Shown here: in pieces, positions 24,342 through 31,930 of the stretch | How the letters are laid out: each line of letters opens with the position of its first letter | How positions within the stretch are numbered: position 1 is the first letter of the stretch | Assembly (NCBI GenBank): GCA_900128585.1 | Contig: LT642219.1 | Location: 1 to 32,028, forward strand | Length of the DNA stretch: 32,028 nucleotides | Source: Stramenopiles sp. TOSAG23-3 | Lineage: Eukaryota > Sar | Reading direction: 5' to 3' | Notes under the pieces: generated by a model | What the model saw: only the letters and a program-made list of their open reading frames with translations | What the model was told of the DNA's origin: nothing | Database searches by the model: none | Translations under genes and position numbers: made by a program

Positions 24342-24995
24342 ATGAAAGTCACCGCTATCTTAGCCGCCCTCGGATTGTCCGCAGCCGCCGTTCAAGCCAC
24401 TGTCCTTACCGACTCCAACTACGATGACGAGACTGCCGGAAAGACCGTATTCATCAAATTCTACGCCCCATGGTGCGGTCACTGCAAACGCTTGGCCCCA
24501 GCCTGGAAAGAGCTTATGGACAAGTACGAGGGCCATGCCAGCGCTATGGTTGGCCACGCCGACTGCACCGGCGAAGCCAAAGAACTTTGCAACAAGCAAG
24601 GCGTCCAAGGGTTCCCAACGCTAAAGTACGGTGACCCCAACAACTTGGAGGACTACGAAGGTGGGCGCGACCTCGAAGAGCTCACCAAGTTTGCCGAAGA
24701 AAACTTGAAACCAATGTGTTCCCCAAAAGACTTGGACCTGTGCGAAGAAGACGACCGCAAGGAAATCGAAGGTTTCATGGCTTTGTCGGCCGAAGACTTG
24801 GCGGCAAAGATCGCTGAAAAGGAAGAAACCATCAAGAACGCTGGCGAGACCTTCGACGAAAAGTTGAAGGAGCTTCAAGCCACCTACGAAGAACTCCAAA
24901 AGACCCGCGACGACACCATTGCCGAAGTCAAAGCGAGCGGACTTGGACTGATGAAGTCAGTGGCAGCACACAGTGCCGAAAAGACCGATCTCTGA
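24342..24995 (+). CDS. Small PDI-like protein: one thioredoxin domain plus charged C-terminal helix
   Basis: 217 residues, ATG 24342. Residues 1-19 are a cleavable signal peptide (ending AAAVQA). Residues about 20-125 are a thioredoxin domain with the PDI active site WCGHC (C45 and C48), the helix KRLAPAWKEL and the cis-proline segment GVQGFPTLKYG. Residues about 130-205 are an acidic/Lys helical tail (AEKEETIKNAGETFDEKLKE) that may be a coiled coil. The protein ends AEKTDL, a plausible KDEL-variant ER-retention signal (KTDL). It probably catalyses disulfide exchange in secretory proteins. Codon choice is strongly biased to GCC/ACC/AAG-type codons, suggesting high expression. It has one domain rather than the two of classical PDI. 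Confidence 0.88.
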   Translation: MKVTAILAALGLSAAAVQATVLTDSNYDDETAGKTVFIKFYAPWCGHCKRLAPAWKELMDKYEGHASAMVGHADCTGEAKELCNKQGVQGFPTLKYGDPNNLEDYEGGRDLEELTKFAEENLKPMCSPKDLDLCEEDDRKEIEGFMALSAEDLAAKIAEKEETIKNAGETFDEKLKELQATYEELQKTRDDTIAEVKASGLGLMKSVAAHSAEKTDL

Positions 24996-25517
24996 TTGCT
25001 TACAAAGGCGAGAAATGAAAGTAAATTTCCTGTCGTTTCTCAGCTTTTGTTGGTTATGTGTGTGCTCGCATTTTTGTCTTCCGGAGAGAAGTCTTCAAAG
25101 AGGGAAGTTGGTAGCAACCAAGGCAGTTGACGTTTTCGTAAGCGTCACTCCAGTCGTCAAATTAGTCCGTGTCCGTGTCCTAGAGTAAATAGTCAAGGTT
25201 GACATCTGAGTTGGTACAGATAGCATACGCTTCCAGGCAGCCGGTAGTCTCTACCGTTTTGCTTGGGGCGACAAGTGCCGTTTTTGAACCAACTCACATG
25301 TACAGAATAACCTGACTGCTTCTCTTTCTCGAGAACGGCAAGGCGTGATTTGACGACCGCTTTCAACGCGATCAACCTTTCCTTCTATACAGATTGCAAC
25401 ATCTATAGAACAGAATGCGTCTGCAAAACATATTTTTTCAAGTAGATATGGAAATGATGCTCGTTCGCAATAAATTCAATATTGCAACGTGAGCTGACAC
25501 AAATTGCAGGACCCATA
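24996..25517. other. Convergent 3' spacer
   Basis: 522 bases between the PDI-like gene (plus) and the Mx-like gene (minus). A 57-codon frame starting at 25015 has a hydrophobic start but no support as a gene and is most likely 3' UTR. No repeat element like those at other gene ends was found. Confidence 0.45.
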
Positions 25518-28007
25518 TTAAACAAGACTGGCGAAGGGGAGCTTTTGTGCCGCAATCGGCACGAGAAACCTTTGCCCAGACAATGGATTTGCTACTACAC
25601 AAGCAAGCAAAAAGTAGTAGTGAACGACGGGATATTTATATACAAAAAGAGAGGAAACAATCATTAGGCGTCTGGTGCAGACCGGCTCTATAATTTGCAA
25701 GGGCTCAACTTTTCTAAAAATCAAGATCACCCGTTGTGGATGATGAAGAGAGGAAGAAAAGTTTGGGCCACCCCGTCTTAAAAAGTTTAAGACAACTTGG
25801 CAGTTATTAGAGGCGCGTGCGTTTTTATTAAATTTAATAGTCAGCCGGATAGTTTTTATTTTTTCTTTCTCCCTCATCAAAATACGGAACGATGTACGAA
25901 GTAGTTTAACAGTCTCTTCGAGCTGTTTTCGTTTTCTTCTTTGTTTCTCATCTTGAAAAAAGTAATTTTCCATATCTTCATCGTTTGCATTAAATAATGT
26001 CTCTTGTAACATTTTCTCTATTCTGTTCGCATGTATTGGATTTGTGTAACCATCGGTAATAATCATACCCACTTCATCCACATATCTTTTTTTTGCCAAT
26101 TTCCAGTATGCTTCTAACATGTCAATCATGTCGTCAACTTCTTGGGATTCATTGCTGGCATTGCCTAATGTAGATTTGAGAATCTCGATTAATTCAGTTT
26201 TTTTTACGTACCCTGAGGCTAGCGGGTAGTTGCCAATAGTATTTTTCTCATACACCGTTGCGTCAGATATACCGTTTATCTTCTTTTCTACCCGATCATT
26301 ACGTAATTTGTTGATTGTATCCCAGAGATAATGGTTCTCAGTGCTCGGTATTTTTTCTTGGTCAAGTAAGGCTCCCAAGCGCTCTCTGACAATTTCTTGA
26401 ATTGTTTTATAATACTTGTCGATATCGGCTACCAGTCTGTCACATAGTCGCGGAAATTTTGCAGCATGTTTTTTAGCAAAGATATGTGCAGTCTTTATGG
26501 CAAATGTGTGCACATTATCTTGGAAGATTTTGCTTGGTTTTTGCCATAAATTAACATAATCTTCGATCAGAGAGGAGAAAACATTAAAATTTAAAAACCC
26601 GGGAAGTTCACGCCCTCTTCGACATTGCATTAGTTCAAAGAGTTCTCCTCGAAAATGTTTCATTCTTTCTGTAATTTCCCAGTTTTCTTCATCAATACAT
26701 AAATAGTCTCCAATTTTTTTACCCTTTTTTAATTGCAAGATTTTTTCACGGATTTCTCCGTTGTGTGACGTGTGCTCCACTTTAAATGTATCCTTCTCTC
26801 CATGAAATCCTGGCTTTGTTTTGCGCACTGCCTTTTCAAATTCTTTGCGATACTTCCTCTCCTGAGAAATCAAACTTGCTTCATGCTTTTCACTAAAATT
26901 ATCAACCCTTTCCATAACTTTCCGTAGGTCAATTAATACATTTCTGCTGATATCGCTGAAACGCATACGTTTTGCCAACAACGTTTCCGGAGAGCCGTAC
27001 CCAAGCTCCTGTAATTCCCCATTTGCGTCTTCAAGCATTTTATCAACTTCCTTGGACAAAGTTGGAATAGCGACTTCAATACGTTTTACCAAAATTTCAG
27101 TCAAGGCCGTAGATAATGCTTCTACACCAAGTTTATCTTGTATTCCTGGAATGGAATGATATTCGCTCTTTTTAAAATATGCCATTTCGTCTTTGCGAGA
27201 ATCTTCAATACTCATTTGGGAATCCAAATTTGCTTGAGATCGGTTCTTCAGCATAAAATACCCATGCTTTAAAGGCTTGCTGCGGTTCATCAATACTTGC
27301 CTCACTTCTTCTTCAGCGCCTTTATCAACAAGGTCCGGCTTTGTCAGCACGCCAACAGTCCGCTCCCCTTCAGGATCAACTTGATGTGCCTTTTCCAGTA
27401 TTTCGCTAGTAGCTATATCAACATTTGCTGGTATTACTGCTAAGATTACGGTCCTCGTTTGCTTCAAATAATGTGAAAGCATATTTTGAACTTGTTCCAT
27501 CACGTTTTTATTTTGGCCATCAACAATGGTTCTGACAATTCCTGGCAGATCAATTATAGTCAAATCTGGTACATCCGGCCCTCGTAGTTTAATCTCAATG
27601 AATTCATTCTCTCCCGCAAAATCGTTTCCGTCTCCAGCCAATTCATTAGTTAATTTTGTAATATGTTCTGAGATCTTTTCTTTTTCGTTTTCATTTTCTA
27701 TTACAAGCGGGTCTGAGTCTTGTATAGATATTTCAGCTTTCCAAGAGCAACCTTGGCTCATGATTACCATAGTTGGACATCTAGTAACGAGACCAGAGCC
27801 CCGTGGAAACGGAATACCTGATATTGCTTCCAAAACGGACGATTTACCTGAACTTTGGTCACCCATGACCGCAATTTGCGGTATTGGTATTTTTTTGTGC
27901 AATCCGATTTTTCGCAAGTAGTCAACAAGGTCAATAACCGCGCGGGTACGCTCACGCATCATATGTACCGTGTTGTTCATGGAAGAGGGCGAGGAGGAAT
28001 TAGACAT
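25518..28007 (-). CDS. Mx-like dynamin-family large GTPase
   Basis: 829 residues, ATG at 28005-28007. Dynamin GTPase domain with every G motif: G1 GDQSSGKSS at 49-57, switch I SGLVTRCPTM (71-80), G3 DLPG (153-156), G4 TKPD (222-225), and NRSQ (255-258). The sequences RGSGLVTRCP and ANVDIATSEILEKAHQVDPEGERTVGVLTKPDL are closer to Mx proteins than to classical dynamin. The middle stalk follows (about 310-560), then a GED-like helical end (EETVKLLRTSFRILMREKEK, up to about 725). There is no PH or proline-rich domain. The last 104 residues, starting near FNKNARAS, match nothing known to me and may reflect a lost stop. Mx proteins assemble into rings and block virus replication in animals; other Mx-like dynamins remodel membranes. 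It is divergent from the helicase gene and, like it, uses many A/T-ending codons. Confidence 0.85.
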   Translation of the reverse strand: MSNSSSPSSMNNTVHMMRERTRAVIDLVDYLRKIGLHKKIPIPQIAVMGDQSSGKSSVLEAISGIPFPRGSGLVTRCPTMVIMSQGCSWKAEISIQDSDPLVIENENEKEKISEHITKLTNELAGDGNDFAGENEFIEIKLRGPDVPDLTIIDLPGIVRTIVDGQNKNVMEQVQNMLSHYLKQTRTVILAVIPANVDIATSEILEKAHQVDPEGERTVGVLTKPDLVDKGAEEEVRQVLMNRSKPLKHGYFMLKNRSQANLDSQMSIEDSRKDEMAYFKKSEYHSIPGIQDKLGVEALSTALTEILVKRIEVAIPTLSKEVDKMLEDANGELQELGYGSPETLLAKRMRFSDISRNVLIDLRKVMERVDNFSEKHEASLISQERKYRKEFEKAVRKTKPGFHGEKDTFKVEHTSHNGEIREKILQLKKGKKIGDYLCIDEENWEITERMKHFRGELFELMQCRRGRELPGFLNFNVFSSLIEDYVNLWQKPSKIFQDNVHTFAIKTAHIFAKKHAAKFPRLCDRLVADIDKYYKTIQEIVRERLGALLDQEKIPSTENHYLWDTINKLRNDRVEKKINGISDATVYEKNTIGNYPLASGYVKKTELIEILKSTLGNASNESQEVDDMIDMLEAYWKLAKKRYVDEVGMIITDGYTNPIHANRIEKMLQETLFNANDEDMENYFFQDEKQRRKRKQLEETVKLLRTSFRILMREKEKIKTIRLTIKFNKNARASNNCQVVLNFLRRGGPNFSSSLHHPQRVILIFRKVEPLQIIEPVCTRRLMIVSSLFVYKYPVVHYYFLLACVVANPLSGQRFLVPIAAQKLPFASLV

Positions 28008-28825
28008 AGTTTTCTGGTAAAGTTAATTTGAATGATGGATGTTTTGAATATCGTTTAATTTCTTAAGCTTCAGTCTGTTTTTTAAACCTGCTTAATGGTT
28101 CAAATTTCTTAAAATATTATTTAATAGCAAAGATACAAATACCCCTCAACCGGGCCCGCAACAAGAGAGTTGGTTGTGAAGCAACTTTTACTAAAGGCTA
28201 CGAACTGTGTAGAAGTTCGTACTACCGTACAGCAGGACACAACACAGAGGAAATGGAGTGAAAACCTGGGTAAAATACGTAAGGTAGTATTCGCGTTGGT
28301 GGGTTGTTTTTTACGAAAAGATTTGTCTTTGTCGTCTCGCCGTGTGGTGTCACTCATTTTGTTTCCTTCTTCTTATTTCCTTGTTCTTATTAGTCCTATA
28401 TTTATTTCCTTCTTCTTATTTCCTTCTTCTTCTTATTTCCTTCTTCTTATATTTCCTTCTTCTTCTTCTTTTGATTGACGACACAAACTATTCCCGTACC
28501 GTACGGTAATATTAATACCAGGACACAACACTTCTAAAATTATTAGCTTTATGTATATTATTTAAAATAATAATAATAATAATAGAACGACTGCTAATAA
28601 TATAATATACATCATCTTCTCCTCGTCTCCTACTCTCGTATGCGCGTACTTCGTGTCACTCTCATTTTGCATCATTCCATTATTTCATAGACGGTACGAG
28701 TTCCTAAATTAGAACAGTTTTTTCACGAGTCGAAACGTACGAGGACAGTTAACCAGGAACTCTAAATTAAAACGTTGAAAGTTCAACGACTAGTCGCAAA
28801 TTTTATATGCCAAACGACAACTAAG
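28008..28825. promoter_or_regulatory. Shared divergent promoter region of the Mx-like and RIG-I-like genes
   Basis: 818 bases between two divergent start codons. Contains the pyrimidine repeat at 28362-28471, a palindromic CCGTACCGTACGG-type stretch (28494-28506), ATAATA repeats (28566-28582) and the 9-mer TACGAGGAC (28738-28746), 80 bases before the helicase ATG. Co-regulation of the pair is inferred from geometry only. Confidence 0.45.
28362..28471. repeat. Degenerate TTTCCTTCTTCTTA repeat
   Basis: About five imperfect copies of a 14-base pyrimidine-rich unit in the promoter region between the divergent pair. Confidence 0.65.
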
Positions 28826-31800
28826 ATGTCAAGTCTGGCTGTTGACAATGAAGGCACAAGCACGTGGGACCGATTCATGACGGAGGATGTATGTTTACTG
28901 GACAACGAGTCTTTTAAATGTGATAAAACCGGAAATTTTACTGAAGACCAAATTTTTCAAGTTCTAGCACCTTCAAGAAAAGACGATGTAATTAAAAAAT
29001 ATCGCTCCTCACCTATCCTGGTGAAAACAAAACTTGTCCCAATTGAAGTATTGAAAGAGATAGTAACCTGCGACATTGACCTGTTTGGGTTTTTAGTTGT
29101 ACAAAAAGGCGCGAACGTTTCTAACGATAGGCGTGAAGGGCTCAAACTAAAGTTTGGCGGAAGTTTTACTACTATTACACTACAACACCAGATGCATTTG
29201 GGAGAAACTGTGCTGGAAGTAAAAAAATTCAGTCTTTCTTCAGGAAACAAAACTTTAAGACCCCAAATGGACAAGTTAATAGAGGAACATTGGAAAGAGA
29301 AACAGACGTTTGAAGAATCACGTGAGCTAAAACTACAAATGTACAAGTGTAAAGACAGTCTTGAAATTATCAATTGGACGTGGGCAAAAAAAGGGGTAAA
29401 AAGAAGAAGATCACCAAGTGATAAAAGGGTCGGAAACCTAGCTGTTGAAAAAAATGCGGAAATTGCCGGTTCTTTAAATGTTCGTGGTGGTATTACAGGA
29501 GCTGTAATATCTACCGGTGGTGCTGATTTAGCCGAGTGGCGGCCCATATGCAACGAAACAAAGCTGTTAAAGGAAAAAATTGGAACATTACACGGTAGGG
29601 TCGTAATTCGGGCAAAAAGTGAATACACGATAATATTTCCCGATCACGTCGAAAGCTGGTACGAGGTTTTAGTTGTTTCCTCTAAACCTGGGGTGGTTAT
29701 AGGAGAACAGAACAAAGAACAGTTTCCAAATTGTGAGAGGATTGTTGTAGCCGGCTACGCACCGGTGTGTTTCATCGGTGATGTAAAAAAACACGATTTT
29801 TTAATGCCATCAGGAATGAATGACGGTACTGCAAAAGCATTGGGAGGGAATAATTCTTCTCTTCTTTTCGCAATGGCTGCCGAAGACGGAAATAATGAAA
29901 CTGGGATGGTTAATGCTCTGATATACAGTCGCCCGTACCCTCAACCTGCACGACCTGCAAGGTTGCATGATATCAGTCCAGACTTTGACTTAATTGTTAA
30001 AAATGTGATAAGAGAGATGAAAGAAGATTCTAAAGATGCCCAAAATTTGATTAGAATGCGTTGCGAAAATCTCAGAAAATTATCTCCAAAATTTTACCGA
30101 GAAACAATATCGGACATTTTAAAAACAGCTCTTGACGGCCCTGATCGTGGTAAATTTACAAGATTTAAAAAGGCCCTCACAGCGGAAATTCGAAGGGTAA
30201 AAGCTGTACCGACCAAATCGAGGCAAAGACGTATTAACCTGAGAAGTTATCAAAAGGAACTAGTTCGACGCGTAAAAGACCGTACTCGAAGTATAGTGGT
30301 TCTTCCTACAGGAACTGGGAAAACGTTTATAGCTGCTGAAGTGATTTACGAACGCCTGAAAAAAATGGAAGATAAAATAAGTATATTTTTATGCACCACC
30401 AATCCACTTCGAATGCAGCAGGAAAACGAACTTCGTGAGTATATATCCAGTCAGCACGATTATGATAAAAATATTCGAGTAGCATCACTTGTTAGCGAAG
30501 CTACGAACCAGCATGCTCTTGAAAACACAAACAATGCTTTGTATGTCATGACGGCAGGCGGCTTTGATAATGTAGTCGCGACAGAAAAACTGTTAAATCA
30601 TATCGATCTTATTGTGTTAGACGAAATTCATCATCTGGAATGCAACAACAAGAAACATCCTTACAATAAAATTGTAAAAACGTGGCATGATGTTGATTTA
30701 CTGGGATTAACGGCGACGCCGGCTGCTTCAATTACCGATAATTCAACGAGGAAAAGATTCGAATCGTTGTTGAAGTCATTTCATACAGATAATGATGGTT
30801 TCTTACAGGTAATCGAAGAGAAGGAAGATTTGAACAAATTTTGTAACAAAACCGAATTCACGACACAGCCCGTTGTGATGGATCCTGCCGATAAAGACTG
30901 TATTAAACTATTGGAAGAGTTTATTCGGGATTTAGAAATGGATCTAGAAGACAATATCTCTTTCAAGCTAGCATTTCCAGACGAAAAAGACGTGTACGGT
31001 TACCAAGTGAAAGTAACTGCGATGGCCAAGACAGTATTGGAAAAAATGAAAGGACACCAAAAGGCGATGCTATATCGAAGTCAGCTGATATTTTTATCCT
31101 ATCTTAGCGAAGGGCTCAGCTTGGTAAAGAATTTGGGGCATAAATATGCTCGTGAGCATATCTCAAGAAGAGGCAGAAGCTCAATTCTAACTGATGGAAG
31201 TAATGATTCTAAAGAATTTCTTGACAAAGTAGAAAGTCTATTGCTTGGGCTAGAGTCCGCTCAGAATGCAAACCCAGAATGTCAACATCCTAAATTTATG
31301 GAGATGAAAAAAACAATACTTTCCTATACAGCGCAGGCGGAGGAACACCGTTGCAAGGTGTTGGTATTTGCGGAGACAAGGAGAGTAGTAATGGAGCTGT
31401 CCTGCAGGATTAACAGTGATCCGGATTTTATATCAAACAATATTTGTTGTGATTTTTTGCTTGGTTCGTCAAGCAAATCCCACCCTGGTCGCCCGAATGG
31501 GCTTCAAATGTCTCAAGACAAGCAGTTACAAAAATTGGAGAATTTCAAGTACGGAAAGGTGGACGTGTTGGTCGCTACAACAATTGCCGAAGAGGGAATT
31601 GATATTACAAAGTGCAATCTTGTTATCCAGTACGATGTATCCCCCTCTGGGAAATGTTTACAACAGCGAGCTGGACGAGCTCGCGCATTGAACTCCGTCG
31701 TTCATTCCATTTACTTTGCTGATGCGTGCAAAAAGTTTGATGAAACCAAAGCATTGCATAAGTCAGAAGTGGAACAGGATAGAATGAACAACGAAATACA

Positions 31801-31930
31801 AGAAAGAGCAAAACCCGACCGCGGTACGACACGGTTGCGCGCCGAATTGACGGAAGCTGAGAGAAAGAAACACAAGAAGACATTAGAGAAACAGAAAAAA
31901 GGAGAAAGGGAAATCTCTCCTACGAAGTAA
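28826..31930 (+). CDS. RIG-I/Dicer-type DExH helicase with an N-terminal beta-type domain
   Basis: 1034 residues from ATG 28826, the first in frame (MSSLAVDNEG). The C-terminal half is a superfamily 2 helicase: entry motif NLRSYQKELV, Walker A PTGTGKT (494-500), DEIH (599-602), LTATP (628-632), motif V ATTIAEEGIDI (917-927) and motif VI QQRAGRAR (946-953). Between the two RecA folds is a long helical insertion (YRSQLIFLSYLSEGLSLVKN ... HPKFMEMKKTILSY, then KVLVFAETRRVVMEL), as in the Hel2i insert of RIG-I-like receptors and Dicer. There is no CARD, RNase III or zinc-binding RIG-I C-terminal domain; it ends in a basic Lys/Glu tail. Residues about 215-345 look like a beta-rich domain (GGADLAEW at 231-238; PSGMNDG at 328-334). 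The family normally binds double-stranded RNA, so virus sensing or small-RNA processing is plausible. It faces the Mx-like gene. Confidence 0.85.
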   Translation: MSSLAVDNEGTSTWDRFMTEDVCLLDNESFKCDKTGNFTEDQIFQVLAPSRKDDVIKKYRSSPILVKTKLVPIEVLKEIVTCDIDLFGFLVVQKGANVSNDRREGLKLKFGGSFTTITLQHQMHLGETVLEVKKFSLSSGNKTLRPQMDKLIEEHWKEKQTFEESRELKLQMYKCKDSLEIINWTWAKKGVKRRRSPSDKRVGNLAVEKNAEIAGSLNVRGGITGAVISTGGADLAEWRPICNETKLLKEKIGTLHGRVVIRAKSEYTIIFPDHVESWYEVLVVSSKPGVVIGEQNKEQFPNCERIVVAGYAPVCFIGDVKKHDFLMPSGMNDGTAKALGGNNSSLLFAMAAEDGNNETGMVNALIYSRPYPQPARPARLHDISPDFDLIVKNVIREMKEDSKDAQNLIRMRCENLRKLSPKFYRETISDILKTALDGPDRGKFTRFKKALTAEIRRVKAVPTKSRQRRINLRSYQKELVRRVKDRTRSIVVLPTGTGKTFIAAEVIYERLKKMEDKISIFLCTTNPLRMQQENELREYISSQHDYDKNIRVASLVSEATNQHALENTNNALYVMTAGGFDNVVATEKLLNHIDLIVLDEIHHLECNNKKHPYNKIVKTWHDVDLLGLTATPAASITDNSTRKRFESLLKSFHTDNDGFLQVIEEKEDLNKFCNKTEFTTQPVVMDPADKDCIKLLEEFIRDLEMDLEDNISFKLAFPDEKDVYGYQVKVTAMAKTVLEKMKGHQKAMLYRSQLIFLSYLSEGLSLVKNLGHKYAREHISRRGRSSILTDGSNDSKEFLDKVESLLLGLESAQNANPECQHPKFMEMKKTILSYTAQAEEHRCKVLVFAETRRVVMELSCRINSDPDFISNNICCDFLLGSSSKSHPGRPNGLQMSQDKQLQKLENFKYGKVDVLVATTIAEEGIDITKCNLVIQYDVSPSGKCLQQRAGRARALNSVVHSIYFADACKKFDETKALHKSEVEQDRMNNEIQERAKPDRGTTRLRAELTEAERKKHKKTLEKQKKGEREISPTK

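Follow-up and report, generated by a model that had tools for sequence, protein, structure and literature searches.

Mx-like proteins have already been recorded from across the eukaryotes (Langley et al. 2025; PMC11789081); they comprise vertebrate Mx, fungal MxF, plant DRP4 and protist Mx-like proteins, and members from stramenopiles and other protists have previously been reported. According to a 2019 review citing earlier work (PMC6723221), RIG-I-like receptors (RLRs) could not be identified in eukaryotes other than animals, even in fungi and choanoflagellates. In addition, two papers on MYRF (PMC3742443, PMC8326128) describe a phage tailspike intramolecular chaperone domain that trimerises a eukaryotic transcription factor. 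Here, we analysed a 32,028-base stretch of Stramenopiles sp. TOSAG23-3 (LT642219.1; hereafter the window), which is one whole contig (C479) of an assembly of 12.9 Mb in 660 contigs, and which carries an Mx-like dynamin GTPase gene and, divergently oriented next to it, a Dicer/RLR-branch helicase gene. The most unusual feature of the locus, a phage-type domain in the N-terminus of the helicase, was overlooked by the initial annotation. The likeliest reading, to which we give about an even chance, is that these are two genuine host genes, an Mx-clade GTPase and a Dicer/RIG-I-branch helicase with a phage-type domain, which plausibly serve surveillance as separate genes and whose adjacency has no demonstrated significance.

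Both open reading frames (ORFs) reported by the initial annotation were recovered by an ORF check and Pfam searches, the minus-strand frame at 25518-28007 matching Dynamin_N (E 8.5e-39) and Dynamin_M (E 6.2e-34), and the plus-strand frame at 28826-31930 matching ResIII, DEAD and Helicase_C. The helicase start at 28826 matches that of a database protein from the same species (P0003), and the features of the helicase gene are as follows.

28826..31930, plus strand: Dicer/RLR-branch helicase with a phage-type N-terminal domain, 1034 aa from the ATG (domains, homologues, tree)
28826..29398, plus strand: family-conserved N-terminal region without an assigned fold (alignment; no Pfam match; model unreliable)
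29399..29410, plus strand: basic KRRR patch, putatively similar to a nuclear localisation signal (sequence)
29432..29518, plus strand: stalk-like repeats ahead of the phage-type domain, possibly a beta-stalk (sequence)
29495..29893, plus strand: phage virion-type domain, read as tail-fibre/baseplate type, distant kin of Peptidase_G2/IMC (hhalign, shuffle null, negative control)
29978..30205, plus strand: predicted four-helix bundle between the phage-type domain and the helicase core (model m22d960a1c8e8)
30233..30724, plus strand: RecA-like domain 1, with LPTGTGKT and DEIHH (Pfam, motif inspection)
30884..31336, plus strand: putative Hel2i-like helical insert separating the RecA-like domains (low-confidence model)
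31337..31681, plus strand: Helicase_C (Pfam), with motif VI QRAGRARA at 31664-31687

The first ~450 residues of the helicase match no Pfam family, and a search with residues 20-480 retrieved four relatives among 7,998 scored candidates, one 99% and three 43-57% identical. The phage-type domain occupies residues 241-373 (numbering from 28775), contains a GADLAE motif and occurs once in a scan of the genome. When viral contigs were scanned with this domain, one relative was confirmed (E 2e-5 among candidates), a protein of 135 residues encoded on a phage-like contig (L018). It matches Peptidase_G2 (PF11962) below the cut-off (E 0.0032; 17.4 bits against 25); its best PHROG families have no assigned function, and head scaffolding (E 9.3e-4) and tail fibre (E 0.002) come next. 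Relatives were also found in 29 phage records. Most are labelled "hypothetical", the label "baseplate wedge subunit and tail pin" appears once, as does "virion structural protein", and one phage relative adjoins a putative tail sheath gene. On the phage-like contig itself (L018:5004-7729), two adjoining genes each end in this phage-type domain.

Profile comparison established the homology of the two groups. With hhalign, six phage domains aligned to four helicase domains at a probability of 95.9 (E 5.4e-9, score 58.0), and the helicase domain is collinear with the phage domains (L018-L022) along 121 columns that take in the ADLAE motif. The whole-protein helicase alignment placed the match at the same position (E 5.5e-8). 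The score of 58.0 compares with a maximum of 21.6 in 100 column shuffles and 10.9 with reversed rows, and the Mx alignment, used as a negative control, gave a probability of 0.1. Unlike a phage virion domain, the domain of the window protein sits internally, within a eukaryotic helicase, and is unmatched by the Pfam model. As in MYRF, a phage tail-type domain appears to be reused in a eukaryotic nucleic-acid-binding protein, although MYRF has a DNA-binding domain as effector and a membrane anchor. Between this domain and the helicase core, the predicted helical bundle has a predicted local distance difference test (pLDDT) score of 79-88 in the blocks that start at model residue 391, against 56 in residues 381-390, and a structure search yielded no firm fold match for it.

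The helicase had initially been described as RIG-I/Dicer-type, which holds for its branch but not in the sense of a canonical RLR. In the helicase tree, the four-row family groups with the Dicer and RLR rows (100/100), with Hef/FANCM on the opposite side (100/100), and motif VI reads GRAR in all five helicase-family rows and GR[A/G]R in all seven Dicer rows, as against GRT in 10 of 10 Hef/FANCM rows. The ATPase motifs are intact and are kept in relatives 53-67% identical to the window protein. A PDB sequence search gave AncD1D2, which we take to be a reconstructed ancestral Dicer helicase, as the best match, then a Dicer-related helicase and MDA5. The 50 structural matches listed for the helicase model were all RIG-I, MDA5, LGP2 or DRH-1 chains, at a model mean pLDDT of 49 and a large root-mean-square deviation. 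In none of the five family members did Pfam match a C-terminal RLR RNA-binding domain up to E 10, just 39-80 residues following motif VI, and no CARD was matched by sequence up to E 10 in the helicase or its family. N-terminal CARDs are also absent in LGP2. The window helicase resembles RIG-I, MDA5, LGP2 and DRH-1 in its superfamily 2 (SF2) core, DExH box and GRAR motif VI, and may also do so in a helical insert suggested by the low-confidence model; it differs from the RLRs in having no matched CARD or C-terminal domain, in its ~450-residue N-terminus with the phage-type domain, and in being apparently non-animal.

Hef/FANCM was considered as an alternative identity, the best NCBIfam model for the helicase being Hef (155.9 bits against a cut-off of 610). 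The two are related SF2 helicases, but this identity was rejected on the opposite tree side and the GRT motif VI; in addition, ERCC4 found no match in the helicase family proteins, and the genome encodes a FANCM-like gene of its own (L006).

The helicase shares its side of the tree and its type of motif VI with the Dicer helicase domain, but unlike Dicer it has no matched PAZ or RNase III domain, neither of which was matched in the family proteins. The same position on the tree is compatible with a role in RNA silencing or a nuclear RNA pathway, in which a Dicer-related helicase would work with Argonaute and the Mx neighbour would be coincidental. The Dicer-related PDB matches, a partial match to a Piwi domain elsewhere in the genome (contig C352, L023; E 1.3e-7) and the basic patch resembling a nuclear localisation signal argue for such a role, whereas an RNase III domain was not found in the genome assembly, which may be incomplete and in which introns can hide domains. 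We regard such a role as rather unlikely, and prefer to read the two genes as separate surveillance genes.

The neighbouring GTPase belongs with the Mx-like dynamins, as initially proposed, and its gene comprises the following features.

25872..28007, minus strand: the part of the Mx-like dynamin GTPase that homologues support, residues 1-712 (Pfam, PDB, 17-protein alignment, tree)
27339..27875, minus strand: GTPase domain (Dynamin_N, residues 45-223), with GDQSSGKS, DLPG and TKPD intact (Pfam, motif inspection)
26802..27305, minus strand: middle/stalk region (best Dynamin_M stretch, residues 235-402; Pfam)
25878..26150, minus strand: GED-like end of the stalk (residues 620-710; Pfam GED E 0.0015, 19.1 bits, below the cut-off of 21.4; alignment)
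25518..25871, minus strand: tail of the Mx open frame, not backed by homologues and probably not the natural C-terminus (alignment)

An Mx-like rather than a fission-dynamin identity is indicated by score and, with a weak outgroup, by the tree. In a PDB search the window protein scored 270 bits against Mx2 (3.1e-79) and 256 bits against Mx1, with the top non-Mx dynamin at 174 bits, and the pattern was reversed for the genome's classical dynamin (L002; dynamin-1 493 bits vs Mx2 222), one of three further dynamin-like genes detected in the genome. A PH domain is a hallmark of classical dynamins, and none was among the Pfam matches of the window protein up to E 10. A protein search returned 4,743 matches among 8,000 scored candidates, and the 120 matches listed include vertebrate Mx as well as proteins whose names point to several algae and protists. 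From these 120 matches, 50 were hand-picked and combined with the window protein and the three other dynamins of the genome into a tree of 54 rows, in which the window protein falls inside a nine-row protist set (Shimodaira-Hasegawa-like approximate likelihood ratio test 99) nested in 39 Mx-like rows (96), and separate from two of these three dynamins. Vertebrate Mx (12 rows) forms a separate clade (99), which is the next group to the protist Mx-like set. Among the closest relatives of the window protein (45%) is P0009, whose EukProt name starts with "Tbor_TRINITY" and which is annotated MX1.

With its GTPase and stalk, no listed PH domain, and Mx1/Mx2 as its nearest solved relatives, the window GTPase would be a further member of the already known Mx-like dynamins, differing from its relatives in adjoining an RNA helicase gene and in the deviating tail of its ORF. 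The last ~115 codons of this ORF (25518-25871) are not common to the 16 aligned relatives, most of which end near alignment residue 714, and a same-species protein 97% identical to the window Mx (P0007) has a different C-terminal end, which is absent from the three minus-strand frames translated over 24901-26100. Together, the unshared tail and the absence of the P0007 tail from these frames suggest that the true end of the gene is probably near 25872, and the mismatch with P0007 may reflect a strain rearrangement, an intron or an assembly difference.

In keeping with the initial annotation, the two genes are richer in A/T-ending codons than their neighbours, with GC contents at third codon positions (GC3) of 0.36 (Mx) and 0.37 (helicase) as against 0.52-0.72 in nine other genes of the window. 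For a genome sample, 48 long ORFs were taken from 20 other stretches, one of them nearly all N, and 47 were retained after one N-run ORF was dropped; their mean GC3 is 0.566, and two of the 47 fall at or below 0.37. Both lie on one AT-rich stretch (L040; contig C500, 1-10000), with GC3 values of 0.16 and 0.26, one being 3-beta-HSD-like and the other having no Pfam match. The codon distance between Mx and helicase is 0.0835, and two of the 47 sampled ORFs are closer to Mx and four to the helicase. The hint of a shared origin or transfer drawn from this bias is upheld in part: the atypical codon use is shared, but GC is 0.32-0.36 in six of seven window stretches taken as intergenic, close to the GC3 of both genes, so that relaxed codon selection, with drift towards the composition of the non-coding DNA, accounts for the bias no less well than transfer.

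The two codon outliers at the contig end could also represent an AT-rich island acquired jointly, with a virus or a different protist as examples of a donor, or a join made during assembly at a low-complexity tract, and such a tract does lie between the genes. Moreover, data of this kind probably include some chimeric contigs: the related database protein P0127 (contig of 10,587 bases) joins an aspartokinase in frame with the C-terminal ~240 residues of this helicase, and is probably a chimeric assembly itself, the best genome match of its aspartokinase part being 31% identical. Pattern scans of viral contigs, however, gave no Mx-like relative and just two helicase loci (25-28% identity), the adjoining PDI-like gene at 24342-24995 has ordinary codon use, and the local non-coding DNA is equally AT-rich. 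Joint acquisition or an assembly join is in our view the most improbable of the explanations weighed, and two genuine host genes remain the preferred reading.

The initial annotation further interpreted the pair as a head-to-head cassette. The spacing between the two start codons is 818 bp, as had been claimed, and this interval contains the tract mentioned above.

28008..28825, no strand: 818-bp intergenic interval separating the start codons
28354..28471, no strand: low-complexity CTT/TTCC tract within the intergenic region, a possible assembly weak point

A sensor–effector meaning of this arrangement found no direct support. The helicase would sense viral RNA and the Mx-like GTPase would act as a co-induced effector, sharing the 818-bp region and being inherited together. 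Both families act in antiviral immunity in animals, the two genes have matching AT-ending codons, and their gap is the smallest among the five divergent pairs in the window (818 to 2,638 bp); divergence is nevertheless common locally, five of 11 adjacent pairs being so arranged, so orientation is no evidence for pairing. The longest contigs of the same-species Mx and helicase (P0007, 5107 bases; P0003, 10224 bases) are compatible with either linkage or separation, and Mx-like relatives are numerous whereas those of the helicase N-terminus are few. We therefore consider a cassette unlikely and speculative, although the helicase architecture is real and interesting, and favour two separate surveillance genes.

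Trimers are common among fibre proteins, and on the model of tail fibres and MYRF the phage-type domain and its repeats may fold as an oligomer, possibly a trimer, that would hold several helicase modules through the helical-bundle linker. Multiple modules could in turn bind RNA multivalently, with double-stranded RNA as the substrate suggested by membership of the Dicer/RLR branch, and ATP hydrolysis would power movement or discrimination on the RNA. The helicase, which is rarely found, may be an ATP-dependent, oligomerising RNA helicase without CARDs, an RLR C-terminal domain or RNase III, possibly antiviral. The Mx-like protein would self-assemble via its stalk; its targets would be viral ones or membranes, as may be the case for other Mx/DRP4 proteins. 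Judging from their protein families, both might take part, as separate genes, in antiviral or foreign-nucleic-acid surveillance.

Several observations weigh against this interpretation. The term "tail-fibre/baseplate type" is a reading of sparse labels, and Pfam's own Peptidase_G2 model gives no match to the helicase. The structure models are poor, with a mean pLDDT of 42 for the N-terminus and 49 for the helicase core, so that oligomerisation is without structural support and the phage-type fold is not confirmed by structure. The stem of the helicase family is long (2.12), and its position within the Dicer/RLR side is thus not settled by the tree. The outgroup of the Mx tree consists of three long-branched rows of one genome, one of which (L004) falls on the Mx side without a firm place there; these rows are not gathered on a single side of any branch, and the rooting of the tree is weak. 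Furthermore, the antiviral role of non-animal Mx-like proteins is unsettled, according to PMC11789081.

In its strongest form, the locus would be a protist antiviral system with a trimeric RLR-type sensor, in which a phage tail-fibre-type domain replaces CARDs and the C-terminal domain, co-regulated with an Mx effector; we rate this combination as decidedly unlikely, but if true it would provide RLR-type RNA sensing outside animals with a fibre-based oligomerisation module. A Dicer/RLR-branch helicase that is apparently not from an animal, lacks RNase III and carries a new N-terminus is relevant to how RNA sensing originated, and its phage-type domain offers a concrete, testable idea of oligomerisation, with MYRF as a precedent. 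If the Mx neighbour were co-induced, the two would pair an RNA sensor with an Mx effector in a protist. Otherwise, the helicase would still have a domain architecture for which, as for the Mx–helicase pairing, no report was found in the largely open-access literature searched.

As for the organism itself, no chlorophyll-binding protein or light-harvesting gene was found in the genome, which suggests that it is perhaps a heterotroph. Finally, the sequence TAATATTAATAC is present four times in the window (3319, 24014, 24048 and 28507), one copy lying within the Mx–helicase intergenic region as GGTAATATTAATACC, and is a possible candidate for a host promoter element.

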